DNA of 64,000 bases from an uncultured Prevotellaceae bacterium (lineage in GTDB: Bacteria > Bacteroidota > Bacteroidia > Bacteroidales > Bacteroidaceae), in the NCBI GenBank assembly GCA_902775605.1, contig CACYNE010000003.1, positions 40,038-104,037 on the forward strand, read 5' to 3'. Positions 44,078 through 55,734 of the stretch are shown piece by piece. Made by a program: the position numbers and the translations under genes. Each line of letters begins with the position of its first letter. Within the stretch, counting starts at the first letter, position 1. The notes below the pieces were generated by a model, which was given only the letters and a program-made list of their open reading frames with translations, did no database searches and was not told where the DNA came from.

Positions 44078-45133
44078 ATGAATTACAAGGAAACATTCGG
44101 GCGAAGGCTAAAGAGCGCCCGGTTAATGAAAAGGTTAACGATGGATGAACTATCAAAGCGTACAAATGGCGAGGTGAGCAAACCAAACATCTCGAAGTAC
44201 GAGGCTGGCAAGATGATGCCGTCCTCTAAGGTTCATATTGCGCTGGCAAAAGCTCTCGGAATGGACTTCGACTACTTCTTCCGCCCAGTGACGGTGCAGA
44301 TAACCCGCCCCGCAGACTATCGCAAAAAGGCGAAGCTAACTAAGGGCGATGAGTATGCCATCAACGAGGAGGTGAAGGACAAGGCCGAGCGTTATCTGGA
44401 GATTGAGGATACGCTGGGTATCAGCATGACGTTCGACTACGACCTAAGTGACATCGTGGTATCGACCCGTCAGGATGTAAAGCGCGTGGTGGCCCGCATT
44501 CGTAAAGATTGGAATTTGGGACTAGGACCGATTAGCAACATTATTGACCTGCTGGAGTCTCACGGTCTGCGTGTGATAGAGATTGAGGCTCCCGATGCAT
44601 TCGACGGCATGTGCATATTTGTTGGGGAAAAGAAACCTGTTCTGGTGCTCAACAAGCATTACACCGTGGAGCGCAAACGATTCAATACGCTGCACGAATT
44701 TGGTCACTCTGTTATGCGGATGGATGATAGTCTCTCGCAAAAGGAAAAGGAGTCACTATGCCATTATTTTGCTGGCGAGATGCTCCTTTCATCGGAAGTG
44801 CTTCATCAGGTGTTTGGCACACGTATTAATAAGGTGTTCTTGAATGAAATAGGTCATCTGCAGACTCAGTTTGGCATCAGCATTGATGCCATCTTCCACC
44901 GTCTGAAGGATGAGGGCATTATGAGTGATGTGTTCTATCGCGAGTTCTGCATCAAAAAGAACACGAGTCCGAAGTTGAAGGCTTGGGCGAATACCTCGAC
45001 TTATCTGGGCGAAGAAACCTCATACAGGTTCTCGCGTATGGTGTATCGTGCCTTAGCTGAAAACCTCATCAGTGAAGAAAAGGCAAATGAAATTCTTGGA
45101 ACTAACGAAATATCTTATATCGACAATAAATAG
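44078..45133 (+). CDS. XRE regulator fused to ImmA/IrrE metallopeptidase
   Basis: 351 residues. N-terminal HTH (residues ~5-65; 'SARLMKRLTMDELSKRTNGE', 'PNISKYEAGKMMPSS'), middle linker, then an ImmA/IrrE (COG2856) peptidase with H-E-F-G-H at residues 206-210 and 'KESLCHYFAGEMLLSSEVL' supplying the third ligand region. This fusion acts as a repressor/antitoxin in phage-like and toxin-antitoxin modules; ImmA-type peptidases cleave repressors. The next gene starts 2 bp after its stop, the usual toxin position. Confidence 0.93.
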   Translation: MNYKETFGRRLKSARLMKRLTMDELSKRTNGEVSKPNISKYEAGKMMPSSKVHIALAKALGMDFDYFFRPVTVQITRPADYRKKAKLTKGDEYAINEEVKDKAERYLEIEDTLGISMTFDYDLSDIVVSTRQDVKRVVARIRKDWNLGLGPISNIIDLLESHGLRVIEIEAPDAFDGMCIFVGEKKPVLVLNKHYTVERKRFNTLHEFGHSVMRMDDSLSQKEKESLCHYFAGEMLLSSEVLHQVFGTRINKVFLNEIGHLQTQFGISIDAIFHRLKDEGIMSDVFYREFCIKKNTSPKLKAWANTSTYLGEETSYRFSRMVYRALAENLISEEKANEILGTNEISYIDNK

Positions 45134-45135
45134 AT

Positions 45136-46050
45136 ATGATTAAAACTATTGTAGTTGCCGAACGGGCAACAATCGACCATTTTAGTATTGACAGGATAAT
45201 GAATGCCATCGTCAAGTCATTCACGACCGTAAACGAACCTACAGTTATTGGGGATGCCACAAGAATTCTTGGCAAACTAATGATGACCCAATACACATTC
45301 GAGGATTTGGGAGGTAAAATGAAAGCACAAGTACACGACGGACAAAGACACGGCATGTTTGAAGTGATGGATTTGGAAGGTGACACTTGGAGCGAGTTCC
45401 TGGATTTCCGCCAACCCTACAGCAGCAGTATATCGTGGGAGCAGAGTGCTGCGCTGTATTGGTCACAGAAGATTCCTGATTGCTGGTTGGTGAGCGAGTC
45501 GGAACAAGTACTGGATTTTGCTCAAGACTTGGGCGTACCGATTATGACTATTGACGAGATGCAAGAGGCCTTTTTTGCAGACGAGGTATTCGAGACTGCT
45601 CAGGACTGTCCACCGCCATCTGTTGTTGTGGGGCCATTCGACCCTCGTGTAGATGCTGACAAGGTAGAGGCTGCCTTTAGTGATAGGTTGGATGGCGATT
45701 TGGCTGTACTTAAACAGAAGTCGTATTGGGTGGTTGTCTGCGTGCTCTTCGAGTGGTTCGGCTGGATTAAACAGCGTAAGCGTGCTGACTTCTGCCAGTG
45801 GGTGAATGCACATTTTCACTTCGAGAACCCTATTGTTGCCGAGATTGACTTAAAGTCTGCCACTAATAAAATAAATGTAAAGGAGCGCAACCTTGAACTT
45901 TGGCCTAACAACCAATACCGAGACCTTGCCTTCCTTCTGAAAGACATGTTCTTTGGCGAACGTCAGGGGCTGTCAAATGGCTTTTATGTTTATGCCAACG
46001 AGCCTCAATTTTTAAAGCAAGGAAAGACGTGGACACGTAAAGACTGGTAG
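45136..46050 (+). CDS. Unknown partner of the ImmA/IrrE protein (possible toxin), C-terminal 'WVN' domain
   Basis: 304 residues. Residues ~100-145 ('SAALYWSQKIPDCWLVSESE', 'DLGVPIMTIDEM') recall PIN-like folds, which often pair with XRE-ImmA/IrrE, but the acidic active site is not clear. Residues ~176-265 share motif order W-V-V, W-I-K, F-x-x-W-V-N, L-A-F/I-L-L-K/R with the 2102-3019 protein. It ends before a strong terminator. A toxin role is inferred from position only. Confidence 0.75.
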   Translation: MIKTIVVAERATIDHFSIDRIMNAIVKSFTTVNEPTVIGDATRILGKLMMTQYTFEDLGGKMKAQVHDGQRHGMFEVMDLEGDTWSEFLDFRQPYSSSISWEQSAALYWSQKIPDCWLVSESEQVLDFAQDLGVPIMTIDEMQEAFFADEVFETAQDCPPPSVVVGPFDPRVDADKVEAAFSDRLDGDLAVLKQKSYWVVVCVLFEWFGWIKQRKRADFCQWVNAHFHFENPIVAEIDLKSATNKINVKERNLELWPNNQYRDLAFLLKDMFFGERQGLSNGFYVYANEPQFLKQGKTWTRKDW

Positions 46051-46090
46051 GCTCGTTATACCTTCCGATATACTTTCCAAACAATGGAAT

Positions 46091-46130
46091 ATACCCGATA
46101 TACCTTAGTGTGTATCGGGTATTTTTTTTC
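46091..46130 (+). terminator. Terminator of the XRE-ImmA pair
   Basis: ATACCCGATA pairs perfectly with TATCGGGTAT, followed by T8. Confidence 0.9.
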
Positions 46131-46153
46131 TCTCTATGCTAAGAAGAACACGC

Positions 46154-46161
46154 TACTTTTG
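46154..46161 (+). promoter_or_regulatory. -7 box of the DUF3987 cassette
   Basis: TACTTTTG followed by C, 41 bp before the ATG at 46203. Confidence 0.6.
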
Positions 46162-46202
46162 CATTGTCAATCGACCACTAAAGGCGTTGACAAAGCAAGA
46201 TT

Positions 46203-46478
46203 ATGGTGACAAAGATTTTAAAAGTAGTGGCCCAGACAGAACCTGTCTACGTGCCGAGTAAGAAACAATCGGACGGCCAACTGGCCAAGTCGATGATCAG
46301 GCTCAAAGAGCTTGGTGGTGATTATGAGGATGAGTACATCTGCGCGATGTTCGGCAACCTCGCTCTCTGTAAGTTTGCTGTAGGAAAAACCGTTATTGCT
46401 TCGCTGCGCTTTCAGACGCACGAACTGAACGGGTCGGTATTTCAAGACGTAGTGGCAAACGATATTCAAAACATCTAA
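46203..46478 (+). CDS. Small possible OB-fold protein (DUF3127-like)
   Basis: 91 residues. The strand pattern ('TKILKVVAQTEP', 'DEYICAMFGNLALCKFAVGK', 'VIASLRFQTHELNGSVFQD') resembles DUF3127-type single-strand-binding OB folds, where a conserved E/N-G near the end is also seen (H-E-L-N-G). The match is weak. First gene of the cassette with the BT4734/DUF3987 protein, 94 bp before the next gene. Confidence 0.65.
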   Translation: MVTKILKVVAQTEPVYVPSKKQSDGQLAKSMIRLKELGGDYEDEYICAMFGNLALCKFAVGKTVIASLRFQTHELNGSVFQDVVANDIQNI

Positions 46479-46572
46479 TTATTAACATGGGTTGAAGTCG
46501 AGAGAATCAATTGAGCATCAGCAATGATGTAGGCGCCTTTCTCGAAAACTTCTCTCGCAATTCAATCCAAAA

Positions 46573-47025
46573 ATGGCAAGAAAAAATTGTAAAGTCCAGC
46601 AGATTCTGGCTGGCGAAGTGAGTATGGACACTCAGACAAAGTTCCACGTAAACGGTGATGTGAACATTTATCCTTGCGGATGGGTGGACGAACAGGTGAC
46701 TAACGGCGGCAAGCGTCAACCAAAGGGTCGAATGACCATCGAGGAGGACGGCACAAGTTTCTTCAAGGCTTACCGCATGAACACGGGTCCGAAGCGCGAA
46801 CTGCTGTATGAGACGCGCCACGCCTGTGTGGAGATGACTCGTCCGCTGTATCGCACCGACCGTCCGTCGCACCGACGCAGACTCGACATGGAGTACGTGT
46901 ACGTGACGTTCAAGTTTCCGAAGAACCTGGGACTGGCGCTGATGAAGTCGCTCTTTGCGGAGGAGGCAGACGAGGTGATGTCGTATCTTAAAACAAGGAA
47001 GGAGGAAACAATATGGGAAGACTAA
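46573..47025 (+). CDS. Unknown protein of the DUF3987 cassette
   Basis: 150 residues, basic, no signal peptide, not recognised. Regions 'FHVNGDVNIYPCGWVDEQ' and 'DMEYVYVTFKFPKNLGLALM' are beta-rich, the C-terminus is helical. It overlaps the DUF3987 gene by 13 bp, so the two are translated together. Confidence 0.7.
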   Translation: MARKNCKVQQILAGEVSMDTQTKFHVNGDVNIYPCGWVDEQVTNGGKRQPKGRMTIEEDGTSFFKAYRMNTGPKRELLYETRHACVEMTRPLYRTDRPSHRRRLDMEYVYVTFKFPKNLGLALMKSLFAEEADEVMSYLKTRKEETIWED

Positions 47026-49379
47026 TAGCACTCAACCCGCGTCAGAACAAGGAGCAAACAAGGGCATTAGTACAGGAATGCCAGCTCCACGACTACGACA
47101 CTTTGACTCGTGAGCCGCGTCTCAGCAATCTGGCCAAGCGCATCAGCGATGCGACCGACGATGATGAGCAACGAAGACTGAAAGGCTATCTGCCGTTCCG
47201 CTGTCCGCACTACAGCCGCTTCCGTGATAACTATCGCGACCGCGAGCATATAGATGCTGAGTCGTTTACTTGGCAGACGTGCGTGGATATTGACGACCCC
47301 GAATTGGTGGAACATGCCAACGTGATGTCGGAAAAGCTGGATGTGCAGATAGGCGGCGAGTGGCAGGGCATGATGTTGCACAAGGACTACTCGGCTCGCA
47401 AGAAGCTTCACATTGATATCCGTCTGCCGTTGGGCATGACGGTACCCGAGGCGCAGCGTGCCTACTGCAAGGCGCTGAGTACGGACGGCGTGACCATCGT
47501 AGCCGATACGTCGTGCTTCACACCTGAGAGGTTTATCTATATCACGCCTGCGGAGTACGAGATTTATCGTGCCGACGGATGGTATGAGCAGCTTTCTGAG
47601 GAAGAAATCATGGCTCGTAGGAAGGCCTATACGGATAGAGGTCTGAGCATCGATGGAAGAACTGAGGATGGGGCGTATTATGATAGTGAAGAGTGTAGAG
47701 TGAAGAGTGTAGAGTTTGCTACCGCACAAGACAATTCTCAACTCTCAATTCTCAACTCTCAATTTAAATTTCCACAGGAATTTAAGGACATTCCTTATAC
47801 CTCTATTATCGCTGAGTATTGGCGTAGAACGGGTGGTGAACCTTCCGAGGGTGAGCGCAACAAGCGACTGCATCAGTTGGCAGCTAATCTCAGGGCTATC
47901 TGCGATAACTCGGAGGAGTGGCTGCTGGAGGTGATGCCTCGCTACGGACTGTCAGCGCAGGAGATGAAGGGTATCATCCACTCGGCTTGCAAGGAGCCTA
48001 CCAAGGGGTCGCGATTGATAGACCAGATCATCGAAAGCGAAAGGTCGAGAATGAAGAGCGAAGAGATGGATGCCGAGGCCGTACAGGAAGAGACTGGCGT
48101 GAGGGTAAATATGAAAGCCCTGCCTGTAGGTCTGAAGGAATCGCTCACGGGTGTACCCGTCTCGATGCACATGCCGGTGCTCTGTTCGGTGTTGCCTTTG
48201 GCGGCGGCCTATGCCGACCAAGTGGAGGTGCGCTATTGTGACGGCGAGATGCAGAAGTTGGGCATGATGTCGATTATCTACGGCGAACAGGCCTCGGGAA
48301 AGTCGGTGTGTAAACATGCCGTGAACATCTGGAAGCGTCAGTTCGACGAGGAGGATGCCTTGGCTCGCAAGCGTGAGGATGAATGGAAGGAGCGCAAGAA
48401 GAGTCGCAAGGCCAACGAGAAGGCTCCCGAAGACCCGAAGGTGTTGATTCGCGTGGTGCCCGTGACGGTGAGCTGTTCTACGCTATTGAAGCGCTTGAAG
48501 AATGCCAACGGGCACACCTTGTACAGCTTTGGCGAGGAGCTGGACACGCTGCGCAAGACCAACGGTGCCGGCTCGTGGTCGTCGAAGTACGACATCTACC
48601 GACTGGCTTTCGACCCGATTGACTCGGAGTGGGGTCAGGATTACAACAGCGACCAAGCCGAGAGTGGTGTCGTGAAAGTGGCGTATAACTGGTCGATGCT
48701 GGGAACAAGTGGGGCCGTCAGGAAGTGCTTCAAGTCGGACAACGTAGAGAACGGTCTTTCGAGCCGTATCCTGCTGGCTGAGATGCCCGACACCTCGTTT
48801 GCCAAGATGCCTCGCTACGGGCGTCGCTCCGTGGAGGACGAGGCGAGGATTCAGGAGGCGGTGACACGATTGCGCTCGTTTAGCGGCTATGTGGATACCC
48901 CTCGACTGCGCAAGGCTATCGACGGGTGGGTGGAAGAGCAGCGCGTGGTGGCGCTGAAGGATATCGACCACGTGAAGGATACCTACCGCCGTCGTGCTGC
49001 GGTCATCGGCTTCCGTTGTGGAGTCATCTTCCACCTGCTTTCGGGCAGGGCGAAAGAAAGCAACGCCTGTGTGGAGTTTGCGGTGATGATGGCCAGTTAC
49101 TGTCTGCAACAGCAAATCAAGGTGTTTGGTGTGGCCCTGCAGAATCAGTATGTGGATGCTGAGACGGAGTGCCAGCGATATGGCAAGAACAACAGTATCT
49201 TCGACCAGTTGCCACCCACGTTTACGGCTGATGATCTGGCAGCCTTGAAGCCTGGCAATGTGCCTCGCAACAGCATTATCAAAATCATCTCGCGCTGGAA
49301 TCGCGACGGCTGGGTGGAGAAGGTAGACTCGAAGTTGTGGTCGAAGAAGAAAAGTGACAATGACAAAGTGACATCGTGA
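47013..49379 (+). CDS. BT4734-like N-terminal / DUF3987 P-loop protein
   Basis: 788 residues. Residues ~75-190 are a BT4734/VirE_N-like, primase-type domain ('CVDIDDPEL', 'KKLHIDIRLP', 'SCFTPERFIYITP'); a helical 'PrimC-like' stretch follows, then DUF3987 with a P-loop 'YGEQASGKSVCKH' (~residue 424) and a winged-helix end. In Bacteroidales this family goes with HU-like, smalltalk and amidase genes. Role unproven; replication initiation of a mobile element or a defence ATPase are both possible. Residues ~225-255 are an in-frame purine/pyrimidine palindrome (E-E-C-R-V-K-S, then S-I-L-N-S-Q). The last codons lie in the 40-bp inverted repeat. Confidence 0.85.
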   Translation: MGRLIALNPRQNKEQTRALVQECQLHDYDTLTREPRLSNLAKRISDATDDDEQRRLKGYLPFRCPHYSRFRDNYRDREHIDAESFTWQTCVDIDDPELVEHANVMSEKLDVQIGGEWQGMMLHKDYSARKKLHIDIRLPLGMTVPEAQRAYCKALSTDGVTIVADTSCFTPERFIYITPAEYEIYRADGWYEQLSEEEIMARRKAYTDRGLSIDGRTEDGAYYDSEECRVKSVEFATAQDNSQLSILNSQFKFPQEFKDIPYTSIIAEYWRRTGGEPSEGERNKRLHQLAANLRAICDNSEEWLLEVMPRYGLSAQEMKGIIHSACKEPTKGSRLIDQIIESERSRMKSEEMDAEAVQEETGVRVNMKALPVGLKESLTGVPVSMHMPVLCSVLPLAAAYADQVEVRYCDGEMQKLGMMSIIYGEQASGKSVCKHAVNIWKRQFDEEDALARKREDEWKERKKSRKANEKAPEDPKVLIRVVPVTVSCSTLLKRLKNANGHTLYSFGEELDTLRKTNGAGSWSSKYDIYRLAFDPIDSEWGQDYNSDQAESGVVKVAYNWSMLGTSGAVRKCFKSDNVENGLSSRILLAEMPDTSFAKMPRYGRRSVEDEARIQEAVTRLRSFSGYVDTPRLRKAIDGWVEEQRVVALKDIDHVKDTYRRRAAVIGFRCGVIFHLLSGRAKESNACVEFAVMMASYCLQQQIKVFGVALQNQYVDAETECQRYGKNNSIFDQLPPTFTADDLAALKPGNVPRNSIIKIISRWNRDGWVEKVDSKLWSKKKSDNDKVTS

Positions 49380-49389
49380 CATTAAGGAG
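49350..49389 (+). repeat. 40-bp inverted repeat, right copy
   Basis: Exact complement of 43375-43414. Encodes the end of the DUF3987 protein (S-D-N-D-K-V-T-S) and runs on through the stop to the DUF5675 ribosome-binding site (AAGGAGG). Confidence 0.92.
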
Positions 49390-49397
49390 GTATCGAT

Positions 49398-49844
49398 ATG
49401 GAACTGATATTGACAAGAATAGCAAAGCGCAAGACCTACACCATTGGTAGGCTTGCCATCCGCAAGGAAGTGAACGACGAGTACTTGGCAGGCGCTGCCG
49501 ACGAGTATTTCTGTGACACACTGGAACCCACTTGGCGCGACTACGCCCACGGCGGCCGCAAAATAAAAGGCCGCTCGGCCATCCCTGAAGGCCGCTACGC
49601 GGTAGTCATTTCATGGAGTCCGAAGATGAAGGCGTGGCTACCCATCTTGCTGGGTGTGCCGAATTTCGAGGGCATCCGCATCCATGCTGGCAACACCGCC
49701 GAGGATACCGCAGGATGCATTCTCGTAGGCAAAAACAAGCTTGTAGGACAAGTAGTTGACTCTCGCATCTGGCTGCATCGGTTGAAGCAGAAAATCGTGG
49801 AAGCCAAGGACCGAGGCGAGGCTGTGTGGATTACCATCCGCTAA
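49398..49844 (+). CDS. DUF5675 peptidoglycan-hydrolase-like protein
   Basis: 148 residues. The DUF5675 pattern is clear: 'YFCDTLEPTWRDY', 'IPEGRYAVVISWSPKM', 'IRIHAGNTAEDTAGCILVG' (H, D, T and C of the presumed active site). DUF5675 is related to L,D-transpeptidase/endolysin-like proteins and commonly replaces the N-acetylmuramoyl-alanine amidase of HU/DUF3987 cassettes. Strong AAGGAGG upstream. Last gene of the cassette. Confidence 0.87.
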   Translation: MELILTRIAKRKTYTIGRLAIRKEVNDEYLAGAADEYFCDTLEPTWRDYAHGGRKIKGRSAIPEGRYAVVISWSPKMKAWLPILLGVPNFEGIRIHAGNTAEDTAGCILVGKNKLVGQVVDSRIWLHRLKQKIVEAKDRGEAVWITIR

Positions 49845-50091: not shown

Positions 50092-50099
50092 TAACTTTG
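50092..50099 (+). promoter_or_regulatory. -7 box of the hsdM operon
   Basis: TAACTTTG, 23 bp before the GTG of the small frame and 154 bp before hsdM. Confidence 0.55.
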
Positions 50100-50121
50100 T
50101 AGCATATTACGCTAACTAGGA

Positions 50122-50256
50122 GTGAACATTTACTCTAAGAATATAGATGAAATAATAAAAGCAGCTAGAGAATTAAATCCAGAAATCAAAATATATCAAA
50201 TGACAACAGACCCTGAGGCATTTAAGCTGAAGGAAAAAGAAATAGAAGAAATATGA
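50122..50256 (+). CDS. Possible 44-residue leader protein overlapping hsdM
   Basis: A GTG-initiated frame (M-N-I-Y-S-K-N-I-D-E-I, ...E-K-E-I-E-E-I) runs from just after the promoter and ends in a TGA that overlaps the hsdM ATG (ATGA, 50253-50256), as in translationally coupled genes. Charged and helical. It may also be a 3' remnant of a lost gene. The GTG start is unsupported by a good spacing of the AGGAG before it. Confidence 0.4.
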   Translation: MNIYSKNIDEIIKAARELNPEIKIYQMTTDPEAFKLKEKEIEEI

Positions 50257-52064
50257 TTAATATAAGAAAACTTGAAGCAGAATTATGGGAGTCGGCAGAC
50301 CTCTTGAGACAGGGAAGTAAGCTGACGAGTAGTCAGTATTGTATGCCTGTGCTTGCTCTGTTGTTTCTACGCTATGCCTACAGTCGCTATAAGATGGTGG
50401 AGGCAGAGATATTGCAGAGCCGTCCGATGCGAGGTGGGCGTGTGATGCCTGTCGAGCCAAGCGACTTTGCAGCCAAGAGTGCGCTCTATCTCCCTAAGGA
50501 AGCTCAGTTCGACTATCTGGTGAATCTGCCCGATAATATTGCTGCTGCAGAATTGAAAAGCAAGGACGGTCATGCCATCAACTCCTTAGGCGAGGCTGTG
50601 AACAATGCCATGCAGCTGGTGGAGGACCAAAGCGAACAACTGACTGGCGTGCTGCCTAAGACCTATACCAGCTTTGCTGATGACCTGTTGCGCGAGCTGC
50701 TCCGTATATTCAACAATAAGACCATCGACGAAGTTGGTGGTGATGTAATTGGCCGCATCTACGAATACTTCCTTTCCAAGTTCGCCAAGGCCGTAGCTAG
50801 CGATGATGGTGTGTTCTTCACGCCAAAGTCATTAGTAAAAATGCTGGTTAATGTGCTGGAACCCAAGCAGGGTGTGATGCTTGATCCAGCCTGTGGTAGT
50901 GGTGGTATGTTTGTGCAGACAGGCGACTTTGTGAACCAGTCTGGCCTCAATGCCAACACCAGCATGACGTTCTTCGGACAGGAGAAGGTTGAATATAACG
51001 CCCAGCTCTGCTTGATGAATATGGCTGTGCATGGATTGAACGGTAAGATAGTTTCTGGCGACGAAGCCAACTCGTTCTATCATGATGCCCACAACCTCGC
51101 TGGTAAGTGCGACTATGTGATGGCTAATCCACCATTTAATGTGGATAAGGTGAAAGCTGAGTCGGCTTCTGCTGCAGGACGTCTGCCCTTTGGTTTGCCA
51201 GGCGTAAATGCCAAGACCAAAGAGATTGGCAATGCCAACTATCTCTGGATTAGCTATTTCTATGCCTACTTGAACGAACACGGTCGGGCGGGATTCGTAA
51301 TGGCGAGCTCGGCTACCGATAGCGCCAACAAAGACCGTGATATCCGTGAGAAACTGGTGCGCACAGGCGATGTGGATGTGATGGTCAGCGTAGGCAACAA
51401 CTTCTTCTATACGCTGTCATTACCTTGTTCACTGTGGTTCTTTGATCGCAATAAGAATGCTGACATTCGTGATAAGGTACTCTTCATTGACGCCCGTAAT
51501 TACTATACGGTTGTTGACCGCACCCTGAACGAATGGACAGAATGGCAGCTGCGTAATCTGCAGGCCATTGTTCATCTGTATCGTGGCGAGAAAGATAAGT
51601 ATCAGCAGTTGTTGGCCGATTATAAGGCTGTATTAGGTGACACAACGGTTGCTTCTGCTCAAAAGGCACTTGATGAGCAGAAGGCCGCAGCCAAAGAGGC
51701 AATTGCAAACGCTCAGCGTAAGGAAAAGAAACGTATCGAGGCTGAACAAAAAGTGCTAATCGACGAACTCGAAGATATACTTGAAACAGCCCGTCAACAT
51801 GAATGGCTCACAGAAAAGTTTGGCGATGGCGAATATCAAGACGTGCTGGGTCTCTGCAAGATTGCAACCATACAGGAGATTGAGGAAAAGAACTATTCTC
51901 TCACTCCAGGTGCCTATGTTGGCGTTGCTGAAGTGGAAGACGACGGCGTAGATTTCCACGAGCGTATGAATGAAATCCATGCCGAACTCGCCTCACTCAA
52001 CAAAGAGGCAAACGTGCTAATGAGCGAGATCATGAAGGAATGGGACAACCTAAACACGAAGTAA
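50253..52064 (+). CDS. hsdM: Type I restriction-modification methyltransferase
   Basis: 603 residues. HsdM N-terminal helical domain (residues ~5-140), then the N6-adenine methyltransferase: motif I 'LDPACGSGGMFVQT' (~residue 210), motif IV 'YVMANPPFNVD' (~residue 287). The C-terminal ~130 residues are a charged coiled coil ('DEQKAAAKEAIANAQRKEKK'). It methylates adenine at a site set by an HsdS subunit. No HsdS or HsdR is encoded next to it: 3 bp downstream is a DUF1016 nuclease. Either the locus is a remnant, or the specificity comes from elsewhere. Confidence 0.93.
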   Translation: MINIRKLEAELWESADLLRQGSKLTSSQYCMPVLALLFLRYAYSRYKMVEAEILQSRPMRGGRVMPVEPSDFAAKSALYLPKEAQFDYLVNLPDNIAAAELKSKDGHAINSLGEAVNNAMQLVEDQSEQLTGVLPKTYTSFADDLLRELLRIFNNKTIDEVGGDVIGRIYEYFLSKFAKAVASDDGVFFTPKSLVKMLVNVLEPKQGVMLDPACGSGGMFVQTGDFVNQSGLNANTSMTFFGQEKVEYNAQLCLMNMAVHGLNGKIVSGDEANSFYHDAHNLAGKCDYVMANPPFNVDKVKAESASAAGRLPFGLPGVNAKTKEIGNANYLWISYFYAYLNEHGRAGFVMASSATDSANKDRDIREKLVRTGDVDVMVSVGNNFFYTLSLPCSLWFFDRNKNADIRDKVLFIDARNYYTVVDRTLNEWTEWQLRNLQAIVHLYRGEKDKYQQLLADYKAVLGDTTVASAQKALDEQKAAAKEAIANAQRKEKKRIEAEQKVLIDELEDILETARQHEWLTEKFGDGEYQDVLGLCKIATIQEIEEKNYSLTPGAYVGVAEVEDDGVDFHERMNEIHAELASLNKEANVLMSEIMKEWDNLNTK

Positions 52065-52067
52065 GTT

Positions 52068-53156
52068 ATGGCAAACGAGATAAAACCAATAGTGCCAACT
52101 GATATTTCAGCAATGGGTGCAGTAGTTGGAAATTTGATGGCTGACCTCCGCCAAATCATTGACGAAGCGCGAATCCATGTGGCATCTACAGCCAACTATG
52201 AGCTTACCATGATGTACTGGCATATTGGCGAGCGAATCAACCGCGATGTACTTGGAAATGAGCGAGCTGATTATGGAAAACAAATTGTCGCGACAGTGTC
52301 ACGACAATTACAGAATATCTACGGTCACAAAGGCTTTGATGTGAAAAACCTGTATCGTCATATGCAGTTCGCAACCCTTTTTCCCGATTCTCAGATTGTC
52401 TCGACAGCGTCGCGACAATTATCATGGTCGCATTTCGTGGAGCTACTGCCATTGAAGGACGAACTGCAACGTGATTATTATTTCACGCTGGCATCAGCCA
52501 ATAGATGGAGCGTTCGTCAGCTTCGCAAAGAAATTGATGGAATGCTATACGAGCGTACTGCATTGTCTTCAAAGCCTGAGGAAGTTGTAAAACAGGAACT
52601 TGCCAATGTTAGAGATAATAAAGTTGTTTCTCCTGATGTTGTATTCAAAAGCCCTTATTTCCTTGAATTTACTGGGTTAAAAGGCTTGTATAGCGAGAAG
52701 GACTTGGAAGATAGTCTTGTCGCACATCTGGAACAGTTCATTCTTGAACTCGGAAATGGGTTCTGTTTTGCTGAGCGTCAAAAGCGTATGATTATTGACG
52801 GAGAGGATTTCTATCTTGACCTGCTATTCTATCACCGCAAACTACATCGCCTTATTGCCATTGATCTGAAACTCGGTCGTTTCAAAGCTCAATACAAAGG
52901 TCAAATGGAGCTGTATCTACGCTGGTTAGAACAGAATGAAATGGAGCCTGGAGAAGAAACACCACTTGGTCTTTTACTCTGTACAGAAGGTAGTGAGGAA
53001 CAGATTGAACTACTCCAACTCGACAAAACGGGAATAAAGGTCGCTCAGTATATGACAGAATTGCCTCCGCGTGATGTCCTCGTACAACAGATACAGAAGT
53101 CCCTTGAAGTTGCAAAAGCTAAATGGGGAAATGAAAGAAAGGAGGATGAAGAATGA
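52068..53156 (+). CDS. DUF1016 (YhcG) PD-(D/E)xK nuclease family protein
   Basis: 362 residues. N-terminal DUF1016 domain ('LMADLRQIIDEARIHVASTA', 'WHIGERINRDVL', 'GFDVKNLYRHMQF') and the C-terminal nuclease domain with the core 'FYLDLLFYHRKLHRLIAIDL' and K-L-G: the D and D-x-K of the PD-(D/E)xK site are present. YhcG-type proteins are common in type I restriction loci and are predicted to act on DNA. 3-bp gap after hsdM and a 4-bp overlap with the next frame make one operon. Two palindromes (52283-52309, 52394-52420) encode its I-V-x-T-x-S-R-Q-L repeats. Confidence 0.92.
   Translation: MANEIKPIVPTDISAMGAVVGNLMADLRQIIDEARIHVASTANYELTMMYWHIGERINRDVLGNERADYGKQIVATVSRQLQNIYGHKGFDVKNLYRHMQFATLFPDSQIVSTASRQLSWSHFVELLPLKDELQRDYYFTLASANRWSVRQLRKEIDGMLYERTALSSKPEEVVKQELANVRDNKVVSPDVVFKSPYFLEFTGLKGLYSEKDLEDSLVAHLEQFILELGNGFCFAERQKRMIIDGEDFYLDLLFYHRKLHRLIAIDLKLGRFKAQYKGQMELYLRWLEQNEMEPGEETPLGLLLCTEGSEEQIELLQLDKTGIKVAQYMTELPPRDVLVQQIQKSLEVAKAKWGNERKEDEE
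52283..52309. repeat. Palindrome in the DUF1016 gene, copy 1
   Basis: AATTGTCGCGACA pairs with TGTCACGACAATT with one mismatch. Encodes I-V-A-T-V-S-R-Q-L. Confidence 0.8.
52394..52420. repeat. Palindrome in the DUF1016 gene, copy 2
   Basis: ATTGTCTCGAC pairs with GTCGCGACAAT with one mismatch; 111 bp after copy 1, encoding I-V-S-T-A-S-R-Q-L. Confidence 0.8.
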
Positions 53157-53383
53157 GCGGGATGTCAGGGGACTGTCCCTTGCCATCCTTGAGGGTGCTA
53201 GATACAATATGCTCCCACATGCCAAGAATCAGTAAGCCCGCTGGCTATTGGACCAAGGCCCGATGTTTCAGGGAGGCTAAGAAAAACAAAAGCATGAGTG
53301 AGTTCCGTAAAAATTGCCCAAGTGCTTTTAATATAGCTTGGAGAAATGGCTGGATAGAAGAGATTCGTGTTTTTTTGAAATAA
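53153..53383 (+). CDS. Short protein with one copy of the GYWTK repeat
   Basis: 76 residues. Residues ~31-74 (GYWTKARCFREAKKNK..., WRNGWIEEIRVFL) are one unit of the ~45-residue repeat that builds the next protein. The first ~25 residues (MSGMSGDCPLPSLRVL...) come from a stretch (53158-53180) with the dispersed GGGGACTG-type repeat and look unrelated, so the true start may be an internal ATG near 53219 (M-P-R-I-S-K-P). The first ATG overlaps the DUF1016 stop (ATGA). The protein stops in a repeat unit, 7 bp before the next gene, so it may be the broken 5' end of it. Confidence 0.6.
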   Translation: MSGMSGDCPLPSLRVLDTICSHMPRISKPAGYWTKARCFREAKKNKSMSEFRKNCPSAFNIAWRNGWIEEIRVFLK

Positions 53384-53390
53384 AAGATAT

Positions 53391-54941
53391 TTGATCATGA
53401 AGAAAAATAATACACACGATAGTGGCTATTGGACTAAAGATAGATGTAAAGAAGAAGCAAATAAATATGCTTCACGTTGTGAATTTCAAGACAAGGCTGG
53501 TGGAGCATATAGCGCAGCAAAAAGAAATAGATGGTTAGATGAGGTTTGTTCACATATGGAAGGCGATAATCATTTGCCAGGGTATTGGACGAAAGAAAGA
53601 TGTATTGAAGAAGCAAGTAGATTTACAAAGAAAAGTACATTTCGTAAAGAATGCCAAGGTGCATACGGTTCTGCATGGAAGAATGGTTGGCTTGAAGAAA
53701 TCTGTATGCACATGAATCAAACACAGACACGAGGGTATTGGACGAAAGAAAGATGTATTGAAGAAGGCAAAAAATATAGCAGAAGAAGTGATTTTAGAAA
53801 AGGTGGGAAAGGAGCCTATAATGCAGCATATACTAAAGGTTGGTTAGAAGAAGTATGTGCTCATATGGATAAGCCATACCAATATACGAAAGAGGAATGT
53901 CGAGTTATCGCATTAAAATATAATGTTGAAAGGTATTGGCGTATCAATGAAAGTGCTTCCTATTTGCAAGCAGAAAAAAACGGATGGCTATCTGAATTGA
54001 CAAACCACATGAAAAAGATGCACCGCTATACGAAAGATGAATGTAGAGTAGAGGCGCTAAAATATACAACACGAAATGAATTTTGCGAACTTTCCCCCCA
54101 ACATTATTTCCGAGCCTGTAGTAAAAACTGGATTCAAGAGATATGTCAGCATATGAAACGACAGGGAAATTTGATATACCGTAAAATATATGTGTTTGAG
54201 TTTAAAGATAATCATGCGTATGTAGGCTTGGCACAAAAGCCAGAAGAGAGAGAAAAGGAACATTTATCTGCAAAGAATTCTGGCGTTTATAAGTATGTTA
54301 AGGAAACTAATTGTCCATACGAATTTAAGGTGCTAACGGATTTTTTGTCAAGAGATGAAGCTGCAGAACAAGAGGATATTTGGATTAAGAAATATGCAGA
54401 AGCAGGATGGCAGATGATTAATATTAGACCGGGAGGTGATTTAGGGGGATGTCCAAGAAAATACACGAAGGAGTATTGTACAAAAATTGCAAAGAAATAT
54501 CGATATCGATACGATTTCATAAAAGGCGATAAAGATGCATATGAGGGAGCTCGTAGATATGGCTATCTTGATGAGGTGTGTGCTCATATGAAGCCCAAGC
54601 GTCAGATGCCAACCAAAGATGAGTATAGAGAAATTGCTCTAAAATATAAAACCACAGCAGAATTTAGTAAGAATGACCTGAATGCCTATAGGTATATCAT
54701 TCGTCATGGGTGGTTCGACGAGCTATGTTCTCATCTTGCAACAAGGCACTATTGGACAGACGCGGAAGTCATTGCAGAATCTGCAAAATACAATAATCCG
54801 CATGAGTTTAGAAAGGGGAACCCCAAGGCATATGACTATGCGAAGAGGCACGACATAATGGTAAAATGCTGCGAACAGATGAATAAGAAATTAACCAAAT
54901 CAAGGGACACTCAGGGACTGGCACCTGTCATTCTGATGTAA
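53391..54941 (+). CDS. GIY-YIG nuclease embedded in eight ~45-residue repeats
   Basis: 516 residues. Repeats of the form (G-Y-W)T-K-x-x-C-x-x-x-A-x-K-Y...F...A-Y-x-x-A-x-x-x-G-W-L-x-E-x-C-x-H-M occur at about 10-54, 63-107, 113-157, 162-205, 209-251, 359-401, 407-449 and 452-495. Between units 5 and 6 (residues ~256-350) is a GIY-YIG domain: 'RKIYVFEFKDNHAYVGLA' (K-I-Y and Y-V-G), R in 'EEREKEH', E in 'AAEQEDIWI' and N in 'MINIRPGG' match the catalytic set. Such repeats accompany GIY-YIG in phage-type endonucleases and may bind DNA. The sequence is more AT-rich than its neighbours, suggesting transfer. Confidence 0.85.
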   Translation: MIMKKNNTHDSGYWTKDRCKEEANKYASRCEFQDKAGGAYSAAKRNRWLDEVCSHMEGDNHLPGYWTKERCIEEASRFTKKSTFRKECQGAYGSAWKNGWLEEICMHMNQTQTRGYWTKERCIEEGKKYSRRSDFRKGGKGAYNAAYTKGWLEEVCAHMDKPYQYTKEECRVIALKYNVERYWRINESASYLQAEKNGWLSELTNHMKKMHRYTKDECRVEALKYTTRNEFCELSPQHYFRACSKNWIQEICQHMKRQGNLIYRKIYVFEFKDNHAYVGLAQKPEEREKEHLSAKNSGVYKYVKETNCPYEFKVLTDFLSRDEAAEQEDIWIKKYAEAGWQMINIRPGGDLGGCPRKYTKEYCTKIAKKYRYRYDFIKGDKDAYEGARRYGYLDEVCAHMKPKRQMPTKDEYREIALKYKTTAEFSKNDLNAYRYIIRHGWFDELCSHLATRHYWTDAEVIAESAKYNNPHEFRKGNPKAYDYAKRHDIMVKCCEQMNKKLTKSRDTQGLAPVILM

Positions 54942-54970: not shown

Positions 54971-55091
54971 ATAATGATAACTCCAAATCGCAGCTAAGAA
55001 GACACTAGGGACTGGCATCTGCCATGTAATAACAAAGCACCCTTCCATTTCGGGAGAGTGCTTCATATTACCAATACCACAAAGGGGGAGA

Positions 55092-55433
55092 TTACATTGC
55101 AACTTTAACTTCCTTTGCCAAAACTTGGCGGACAAAAGCGTTGAGGGTGATGCCAGCCTCTTGGGCAAGCATGGCTATGGCACTATGGATCTCTGGAGAA
55201 ACGCGTACGTTGAACGAGCCGCTGTATGGTTTGCGTGGCTCAACGTTCCTTGCTTCGCAAAGAGCAAGATAGTCGTCGATAGCACCTTCGAAATCCTTAC
55301 GTAGCTCCTCGATATCAGAGCCTTCGTAGGTAATGGCATCCTTGCTCATTCCCTGAACCTTACCAAAGAGACAATTATCCTCTTCGCTATATTCTACACT
55401 TCCAGTGTAGCCTTTGTACTTTAAATATCCCAT
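55092..55433 (-). CDS. hicB: HicB-family antitoxin
   Basis: 113 residues. Degraded RNase H-like fold at the N-terminus ('YTGSVEYSEEDNCLFGKVQG', 'YEGSDIEELRKDFEGAIDDY') and a ribbon-helix-helix domain at the C-terminus ('SFNVRVSPEIHSAIAMLAQE', 'LNAFVRQVLAKEV'), as in the HicB-like group that both binds its own promoter and neutralises HicA. Two bases after hicA; same transcript. Confidence 0.93.
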   Translation of the reverse strand: MGYLKYKGYTGSVEYSEEDNCLFGKVQGMSKDAITYEGSDIEELRKDFEGAIDDYLALCEARNVEPRKPYSGSFNVRVSPEIHSAIAMLAQEAGITLNAFVRQVLAKEVKVAM

Positions 55434-55435
55434 AA

Positions 55436-55708
55436 TTAACCCTCCTTTTTATCAAAATAACCATTTACTTCTAAAAAACTGTACACTTGGCGCATAACGT
55501 AACCTTTGATGATGTTAGACGGATGCGGTTTGTGCATGATATAGCTGTTGCCATCGTTTTCGTTTATAAATTCTATTCTGGAACCAGATGTAGCTCCTTT
55601 ATTACTAAGAGAGAATCCACAACCCTTGAATACTGCCACCATTTCATCGAAAGTGAAGTCTCTGGGCAGAGTCCTAAATCGTTGTAGAAGTTTATCTTTC
55701 TTGTTCAT
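55436..55708 (-). CDS. hicA: HicA-family mRNA interferase toxin
   Basis: 90 residues from M-N-K-K-D-K-L-L; the frame is open seven codons further up but that region overlaps the promoter box. dsRBD-like HicA fold: 'FTFDEMVAVFKGCGFSLSNK', 'GATSGSRIEFINE', 'NSYIMHKPHPSN'. The classical G-S-H catalytic histidine reads G-S-R here, with the histidine in H-K-P-H-P, as in a Bacteroidetes subgroup. Expected to cut mRNA when free of HicB. Confidence 0.92.
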   Translation of the reverse strand: MNKKDKLLQRFRTLPRDFTFDEMVAVFKGCGFSLSNKGATSGSRIEFINENDGNSYIMHKPHPSNIIKGYVMRQVYSFLEVNGYFDKKEG

Positions 55709-55726
55709 TGTAACTGATTTTGGTTG

Positions 55727-55734
55727 CAAATGTA
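55727..55734 (-). promoter_or_regulatory. -7 box of hicAB
   Basis: TACATTTG followed by C on the minus strand, 19 bp before the hicA ATG. Confidence 0.6.

Follow-up and report, generated by a model that had tools for sequence, protein, structure and literature searches.

Type I restriction-modification loci and phage-borne homing endonucleases are the described systems closest to the locus considered here, a cluster of hsdM, a DUF1016 gene and two frames with GYWTK repeats, the longer of which also encodes a GIY-YIG nuclease domain, in an uncultured Prevotellaceae bacterium. The cluster lies in a 64-kb stretch of contig CACYNE010000003.1 (positions 40,038 to 104,037; G000:C3:40038-104037 in our numbering), hereafter the window, from an assembly of 2.99 Mb in 83 contigs that is 86% complete. 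In the type I loci of the same genus (L154, L053, L048 and others), HsdM is 81 to 96% identical to that of the window, the gene order is the same and an ATGA overlap likewise leads from DUF1016 into the next gene; DUF1016 itself is 86 to 97% identical in L154 and L053. Unlike the locus in the window, which breaks off after the first two hsdS codons, these loci continue into hsdS and hsdR. The methylation-associated defence system (MADS) also has an HsdM-like methylase, but the window HsdM scores 46 bits against a MAD2 cut-off of 720, a likeness judged on the methylase alone.

For the repeat gene, PMC10448857 reports homing endonucleases of GIY-YIG type that carry repeated DNA-binding domains, DUF723 and CapR. 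The T5orf172 (GIY-YIG-type) homing endonucleases treated there resemble the family of the window protein in being phage-borne nucleases of this type strung together with repeated modules. In contrast, the window repeat is 44 amino acids (aa) long, no Pfam model covering it was found, and T5orf172 was matched in none of 21 aligned family sequences. The phage family phrog_20046, of unknown function, is matched by the 516-aa frame (1.1e-77) and by the 76-aa frame before it (3.4e-11); its model has 302 positions, whereas the window protein has more repeats and sits in a bacterial locus.

The locus is very probably the front half of an ordinary type I locus that breaks off in its third gene, where a shortened nuclease gene of phage type has become attached by chance (Table 1). 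Its hsdM, DUF1016 and repeat frames are probably not a co-evolved operon.

Colinearity with type I loci ends at the hsdS start codon

Pfam supports the adenine methylase, DUF1016 and GIY-YIG assignments of an earlier note made from the letters of the window: the hsdM product matches N6_Mtase (2.7e-75) and HsdM_N (5.1e-13), the DUF1016 product DUF1016_N (5.8e-44) and YhcG_C (1.3e-43), and the 516-aa protein GIY-YIG (4.8e-8). The tight spacing described in that note was also recovered from the open reading frames (ORFs). Three nucleotides (nt) separate hsdM from DUF1016, the 76-aa frame (53153-53383) overlaps the DUF1016 end by 4 nt, and a 7-nt gap leads to the 516-aa frame, which has a TTG start and an in-frame ATG at 53397. 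At the level of the components needed for type I function, an HsdM with N6 methylase and HsdM_N domains is present, and HsdS is represented only by an ATGAGCG stub. The absence of hsdS and hsdR that the note had remarked on holds for the whole 64-kb window, where tblastn with 10 HsdS and 5 HsdR queries gave no convincing match (best E 0.05; 0.11 for HsdR). For DUF1016, no PDB match was found at E 0.01.

Relatives of the left half were collected in two ways. HsdM at E <= 1e-100 was found in 13 of 150 genomes of the genus, its own included, and the loci of the 12 others were fetched. Five further loci, with DNA that matches at the DUF1016 end, came from a search of 398 genomes of the genus (21 other genomes matched: 8 fetched then, 4 already fetched, 9 weak matches left out). 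Ten of the resulting 17 loci carry hsdM, hsdS, hsdR and accessory genes (L048-L054, L154, L156, L157), although DUF1016 is only a fragment in L156 and HsdM is about 50 aa short in L157. In L055 and L056 the contig ends too early, and the remaining five (L057, L058, L059, L155, L158) are broken or have no hsdM, L058 and L059 resembling one locus in two genomes. None of the 17 has a GYWTK gene in the stretches examined. Of the loci found, L154 is nearest to the window in its hsdM-DUF1016 pair; there DUF1016 is followed by hsdS, two accessory genes and hsdR, with hsdS and hsdR confirmed by Pfam. Complete loci have DUF1016 alongside HsdR, which makes it an accessory gene rather than a substitute nuclease. 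Fic proteins occupy the same slots as DUF1016 in the type I loci of the genus.

The accessory genes of L048-L054 and L154-L158 are interchangeable and include DUF1016, Fic and a Y1_Tnp transposase (L048 7549-8004), the Fic and Y1_Tnp assignments being confirmed by domain searches. They are often coupled to hsdS through the same GGAGG...ATGA overlap.

Table 1. Features at the locus, in window coordinates.
Feature	Position	Strand	Evidence
Candidate promoter element TAACTTTG	50092..50099	+	Sequence reading; fits TAnnTTTG, the Bacteroidota -7 promoter box
3' stub of DUF2971 gene, last ~45 codons; stop overlaps hsdM start by ATGA	50116..50256	+	tblastn with the complete C66 protein, 64% identical over residues 209-244 (E 3.9e-9)
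hsdM, type I adenine methyltransferase subunit, 603 aa, frame intact	50253..52064	+	Pfam; PADLOC MTase_I 1.2e-271; 96.4% aa identity to L154
DUF1016/YhcG PD-(D/E)XK nuclease, 362 aa, accessory gene of the genus's type I loci	52068..53156	+	Pfam; PADLOC PDC-S02 1.4e-123; 97.0% aa identity to L154, 97.8% to L157
hsdS stub ATGAGCG, start codon over DUF1016 stop as in L053 and L154	53153..53159	+	Comparison with L053, L154
28-nt near-palindrome at junction	53161..53188	.	22 of 27 positions self-complementary
GYWTK-repeat frame lacking its 5' part: end of one unit, then one complete unit	53196..53383	+	53196-53369 79% nt identity to L152 7838-8012
GYWTK-repeat protein with GIY-YIG, 516 aa: 5 repeats, GIY-YIG (residues 266-337, nt 54186-54401), 3 repeats	53391..54941	+	Pfam; phrog_20046; repeat profile; 60% aa identity to L089/L101
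Repeat at 3' end of GYWTK gene, 74% like part of junction palindrome	54903..54931	.	Further copies at 55007, 55838

The junction and its broken ends

The window and L154 are colinear over 50243-53157 at 88.3% identity and diverge within ATGAG, where hsdS starts in overlap with the DUF1016 stop; L053 shares 51804-53159 and then runs on into its own hsdS. As expected of a remnant, colinear homology with complete loci (L154, L053) therefore stops at a defined break. On the other side, the stretch similar to the GYWTK gene of another genome (L152) begins partway through a repeat, at 53196, and the L152 frame has one more repeat upstream. Left and right homologies break at one junction, so hsdS has lost all but its start and the repeat gene its beginning. 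By this comparison the 76-aa frame is a chance fusion ORF (53153-53195 plus 53196-53383), and the tight spacing at the repeat gene is inherited from hsdS, whose start codon makes the 4-bp overlap. L152 also has a short repeat frame before a longer one, and the second boundary, at 53383/53391, may therefore be older.

The 38 nt between the two homologies contain a 28-nt near-palindrome, with a predicted RNA hairpin of -13.0 kcal/mol, a value as low in 3 of 500 mononucleotide shuffles. A second copy lies in the same assembly (C2:210-237, L018), in a small ORF before another type I locus, and a further genome of the genus has 27 identical nt directly after one of its genes (G710; L153, near 6300). 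An abundant genome-wide repeat was considered and discarded, as its 17-nt core occurs only twice in the assembly at <=2 mismatches. The right-hand variant of the palindrome is found at 6 places at <=3 mismatches, 3 of them at the locus, against 1 for the control.

That the palindrome is repeated exactly on C2, in an assembly of this completeness and fragmentation, and that the junction occurs in no second genome, would also fit an assembly chimera. However, 28 nt is in general short for a misjoin, and what is joined on the right comes not from C2 but from a GYWTK gene, of which no other copy was found in the assembly; we regard a chimera as improbable.

The left end of the locus is also broken, as sequence comparison shows, inside a DUF2971 gene of which only the 3' stub lies upstream of hsdM. 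The whole gene stands before an hsdM, the third copy in the assembly, on contig C66 (L016 2334-3095; Pfam DUF2971 2.2e-6, PADLOC PDC-S31 4.3e-33). The stretch described in the earlier note begins at 50122, but 50122-50256 is no gene of the system and belongs to this DUF2971 stub. A transporter gene on C66 was found once at that identity, with a next best match of 56%, which fits C66 belonging to this genome.

Direct comparison of sequences shows the breaks themselves, while how they arose is inferred. The ancestral locus very probably ran hsdM, DUF1016, hsdS, accessory genes, hsdR. At the palindrome-marked junction hsdS is missing beyond its second codon, hsdR along with it, and the GYWTK gene has lost its 5' part. 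On the left the break falls within the DUF2971 gene, and the HsdM and DUF1016 frames are still open.

Previously, the operon had been suggested as possibly a different defence system, with the repeats providing DNA recognition and GIY-YIG or DUF1016 the cleavage. In such a system HsdM would mark self DNA and the repeat/GIY-YIG protein, with DUF1016, would recognise and cut unmarked DNA. The HsdM, DUF1016 and 516-aa frames are all open, six GIY-YIG positions are identical in 21 of 21 aligned sequences, and DUF1016 and DUF2971 match PADLOC defence candidates. Against this, the four-gene order, proposed as a check, was found in no other genome examined, and the repeat gene otherwise occurs alone or in phages; here its beginning is missing at the junction, the overlap that couples it to DUF1016 is what remains of the hsdS start codon, and DUF1016 coexists with hsdR in complete loci and so does not replace it. 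Such a system is extremely unlikely, whereas the earlier suggestion of a decayed type I locus is supported by the 10 of 17 clade loci that run into hsdS and hsdR and by the departure of the window from its nearest relative inside the hsdS start. A convincing "new defence operon" can thus arise from a single junction of two broken genes, its spacing inherited from the lost one.

The orphan HsdM-DUF1016 pair

An assembly search gave HsdS matches on contigs C4, C76 and C2 and HsdR matches on the same three only; the earlier note had asked whether hsdS and hsdR lie elsewhere, and they do. That note had also held that complete HsdS and HsdR in a neighbouring locus with an HsdM of the same clade would refute its reading. 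This is largely what C76 offers: its HsdM is 93% identical to that of the window, and with it lie Fic, hsdS, a 133-aa gene and the beginning of an hsdR that runs off the contig end; complete loci are found in other genomes.

Several results weigh against reading the locus as a cut-off type I remnant. None of 397 other genomes of the genus showed the junction, which therefore rests on one assembly. There is no frame damage in HsdM or DUF1016. Relaxation was not measurable in either gene: counting changes since the split of the window from L154, amino-acid-changing and silent codon changes in HsdM were 11/74 on the branch to the window against 7/106 on that to L154 (Fisher p 0.13), and in DUF1016 2/20 against 6/22 in the same order (p 0.44). 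Relaxed selection as a sign of decay was thus sought in both genes and not seen, which implies that the loss was recent or that the pair is still functional. In addition, 2 of 17 other GYWTK loci lie near type I accessory families (L096, with Fic and a 28-29% identical DUF1016; L031, with Fic), a count for which the background rate is not established. Between the window and L154, dS is 1.30 for hsdM and 0.25 for DUF1016, a strong difference that points to a mosaic locus.

In type I biochemistry, HsdM acts with a target-recognition subunit; lacking one, the locus alone should neither methylate nor restrict. The 93% identical HsdM on C76 means that the window HsdM has a possible HsdS partner; with the HsdS of C76, or one like it, the window HsdM could methylate. 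Compatible with loss of hsdS at the junction, then, is the idea that the orphan HsdM, perhaps with DUF1016, has been kept for work in trans with the C76 HsdS, which we consider rather unlikely. The presence of HsdM and HsdS on C76 and the lack of detectable relaxation in HsdM favor it, but the assembly is fragmented, and C76, at 5.2 kb, may come from another strain. PMC6918075 points both ways: the conserved HsdM of Staphylococcus aureus is said there to interact with several HsdS partners, whereas HsdS of Staphylococcus epidermidis is said to function only with its paired HsdM. A pair with no sign of relaxation is useful for asking whether type I systems here share HsdM.

Distribution and mobility of the repeat/GIY-YIG family

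Outside the window the family is stand-alone and sporadic. A profile found it in 13 of 399 genomes of the host's bacterial family, its own included, and in 8 of 30 genera. The other bacterial GYWTK loci number 17, from 16 genomes: the 12 profile genomes plus G044, G035, G592 and G706 (a 63-aa fragment). G001 was left out of these counts, having a weak 51-aa match with one internal stop and no GYWTK protein among ORFs of at least 80 aa at that place; the match may be a remnant. The closest homologue, at 60% aa identity, is a stand-alone gene in a genome of the same bacterial family (G330:C32; L089/L101), beside which hsdM, Fic and DUF1016 were not found; a scan of genome contigs gave one locus, this same gene. 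BLAST of the flanks with the three HsdM kinds of this genome found hsdM beside none of the 17 genes, the flanks of L091, L095, L097, L098, L099 and the Fic side of L031 ending at contig ends.

Among viruses, a first scan with the window protein alone as query gave no relative, and a scan with an alignment query gave 37 IMG/VR loci. None of these matched the HsdM, HsdS, HsdR, DUF1016 or Fic proteins of this genome (tblastn, E 1e-4). The family was found by tblastn in 26 of 50,697 phage records, at up to 11 places per record among the records listed. Two phage comparisons show empty sites: RHph_TM3_3_9 has one family gene on each side of its primase gene and RHph_Y5A has none there, and Vibrio phage R11Z has two consecutive family genes separated by copies of a 43-48-nt sequence, whereas ValKK3 lacks the genes and carries a single copy of that sequence. 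Phage genes that come and go at empty sites behave like homing endonucleases. In RHph_Y60, the primase-side slot that holds a GIY-YIG repeat gene in RHph_TM3_3_9 is taken by a gene annotated as a DNA methylase (L140 699-1448).

The insertion of phage relatives between genes, and the related repeats that flank the window gene on both sides, raise the question of whether the gene homed into hsdS by its own activity. A homing insertion would split its target rather than delete it, yet no remnant of hsdS or hsdR was found elsewhere in the window, downstream included, and the gene's own 5' end is absent at the junction. We consider homing very unlikely and favor a chance join of two broken genes. 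The repeat/GIY-YIG protein very probably has no functional tie to HsdM and, judging from its relatives, from phage mobility and from the published repeat-bearing architecture, probably works as a homing-type endonuclease.

The 44-aa repeat and the GIY-YIG domain

The GYWTK repeats that the earlier note had read in two frames were recovered by a hidden Markov model (HMM). Seeded with the units of the 516-aa frame and iterated, it finds 8 units of 43-44 aa there, and one in the 76-aa frame, outside the seeds, at 8.9e-19. Iteration over the collected loci gave 685 aligned rows, 321 of them distinct, with column statistics on 269 of the 321 distinct units. The strongest positions include Y-W-T, A11, Y14, F20, Y28, H43 and M44; cysteines stand at C7 in 70% of units and at C41 in 64%, and C7, C41 and H43 might bind metal. 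Columns 8, 18, 21, 25, 29 and 32 are among the most variable. These hypervariable columns prompted a test for a TALE-like code of one repeat per site, which was not supported: across 33 array pairs, some overlapping or doubtful, matched repeats showed no excess conservation in them.

The six invariant positions of the GIY-YIG domain are Y267, Y277, G279, R287, E328 and N344, shared by all 21 sequences of the alignment (A4: 19 of the 37 IMG/VR loci, selected by the author, plus L101 and the window). The window protein thus has the conserved Tyr, Arg, Glu and Asn, which we take to include the catalytic residues. Pfam sees GIY-YIG in 16 of the 21 sequences, with otherwise scattered weak matches, one of them NUMOD-like (5.9e-6). 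NCBIfam gave no match for the three family members tried, and against solved structures the 21-sequence profile returned 6 weak GIY-YIG-type matches (best E 0.03). Pfam finds DUF723 (6.1e-10) and CapR (8e-7) in L031, a relative in the genus; neither DUF723 in L030 nor a PIN domain in the gene next to it was seen.

Among the proteins listed, an array has 2-13 units. ResIII/DEAD helicase domains precede the repeats, fused to them, in two viral loci (L126 1878-3980, L128 4786-7101). The repeats would bind DNA like beads on a string and the GIY-YIG domain would cut. The 44-aa repeat "YWTKE...AY..A...GWLDEIC.HM" is conceivably, though we hold this tentatively and at less than even confidence, a DNA-binding module not described before, which phages assemble into arrays and attach to GIY-YIG nucleases, to DEAD/ResIII helicases (L126, L128) or to no detected engine. 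The terms phrog_20046, YWTKE and YWTKERC were not found in open-access full text, which is no proof that the family is undescribed. If the idea is right, the repeat is a new recombinable DNA-targeting scaffold that here landed by chance beside a broken restriction locus. In either case this uncharacterised repeat is the fresh element of an otherwise ordinary locus, and the family merits a name and a structure.

Neighbouring genes

A HicB/HicA toxin-antitoxin pair (Pfam 1.7e-21 and 4.6e-7) lies behind the repeat gene at 55092-55729 on the minus strand. Genes for ImmA-type and DUF5675 proteins occur near the operon (window 44078-49844), and L030 has such genes near its GYWTK gene too. The large gene that separates them does not have the same domain in the two places, with a weak DUF3987 match in the window and BT4734-like_N in L030.

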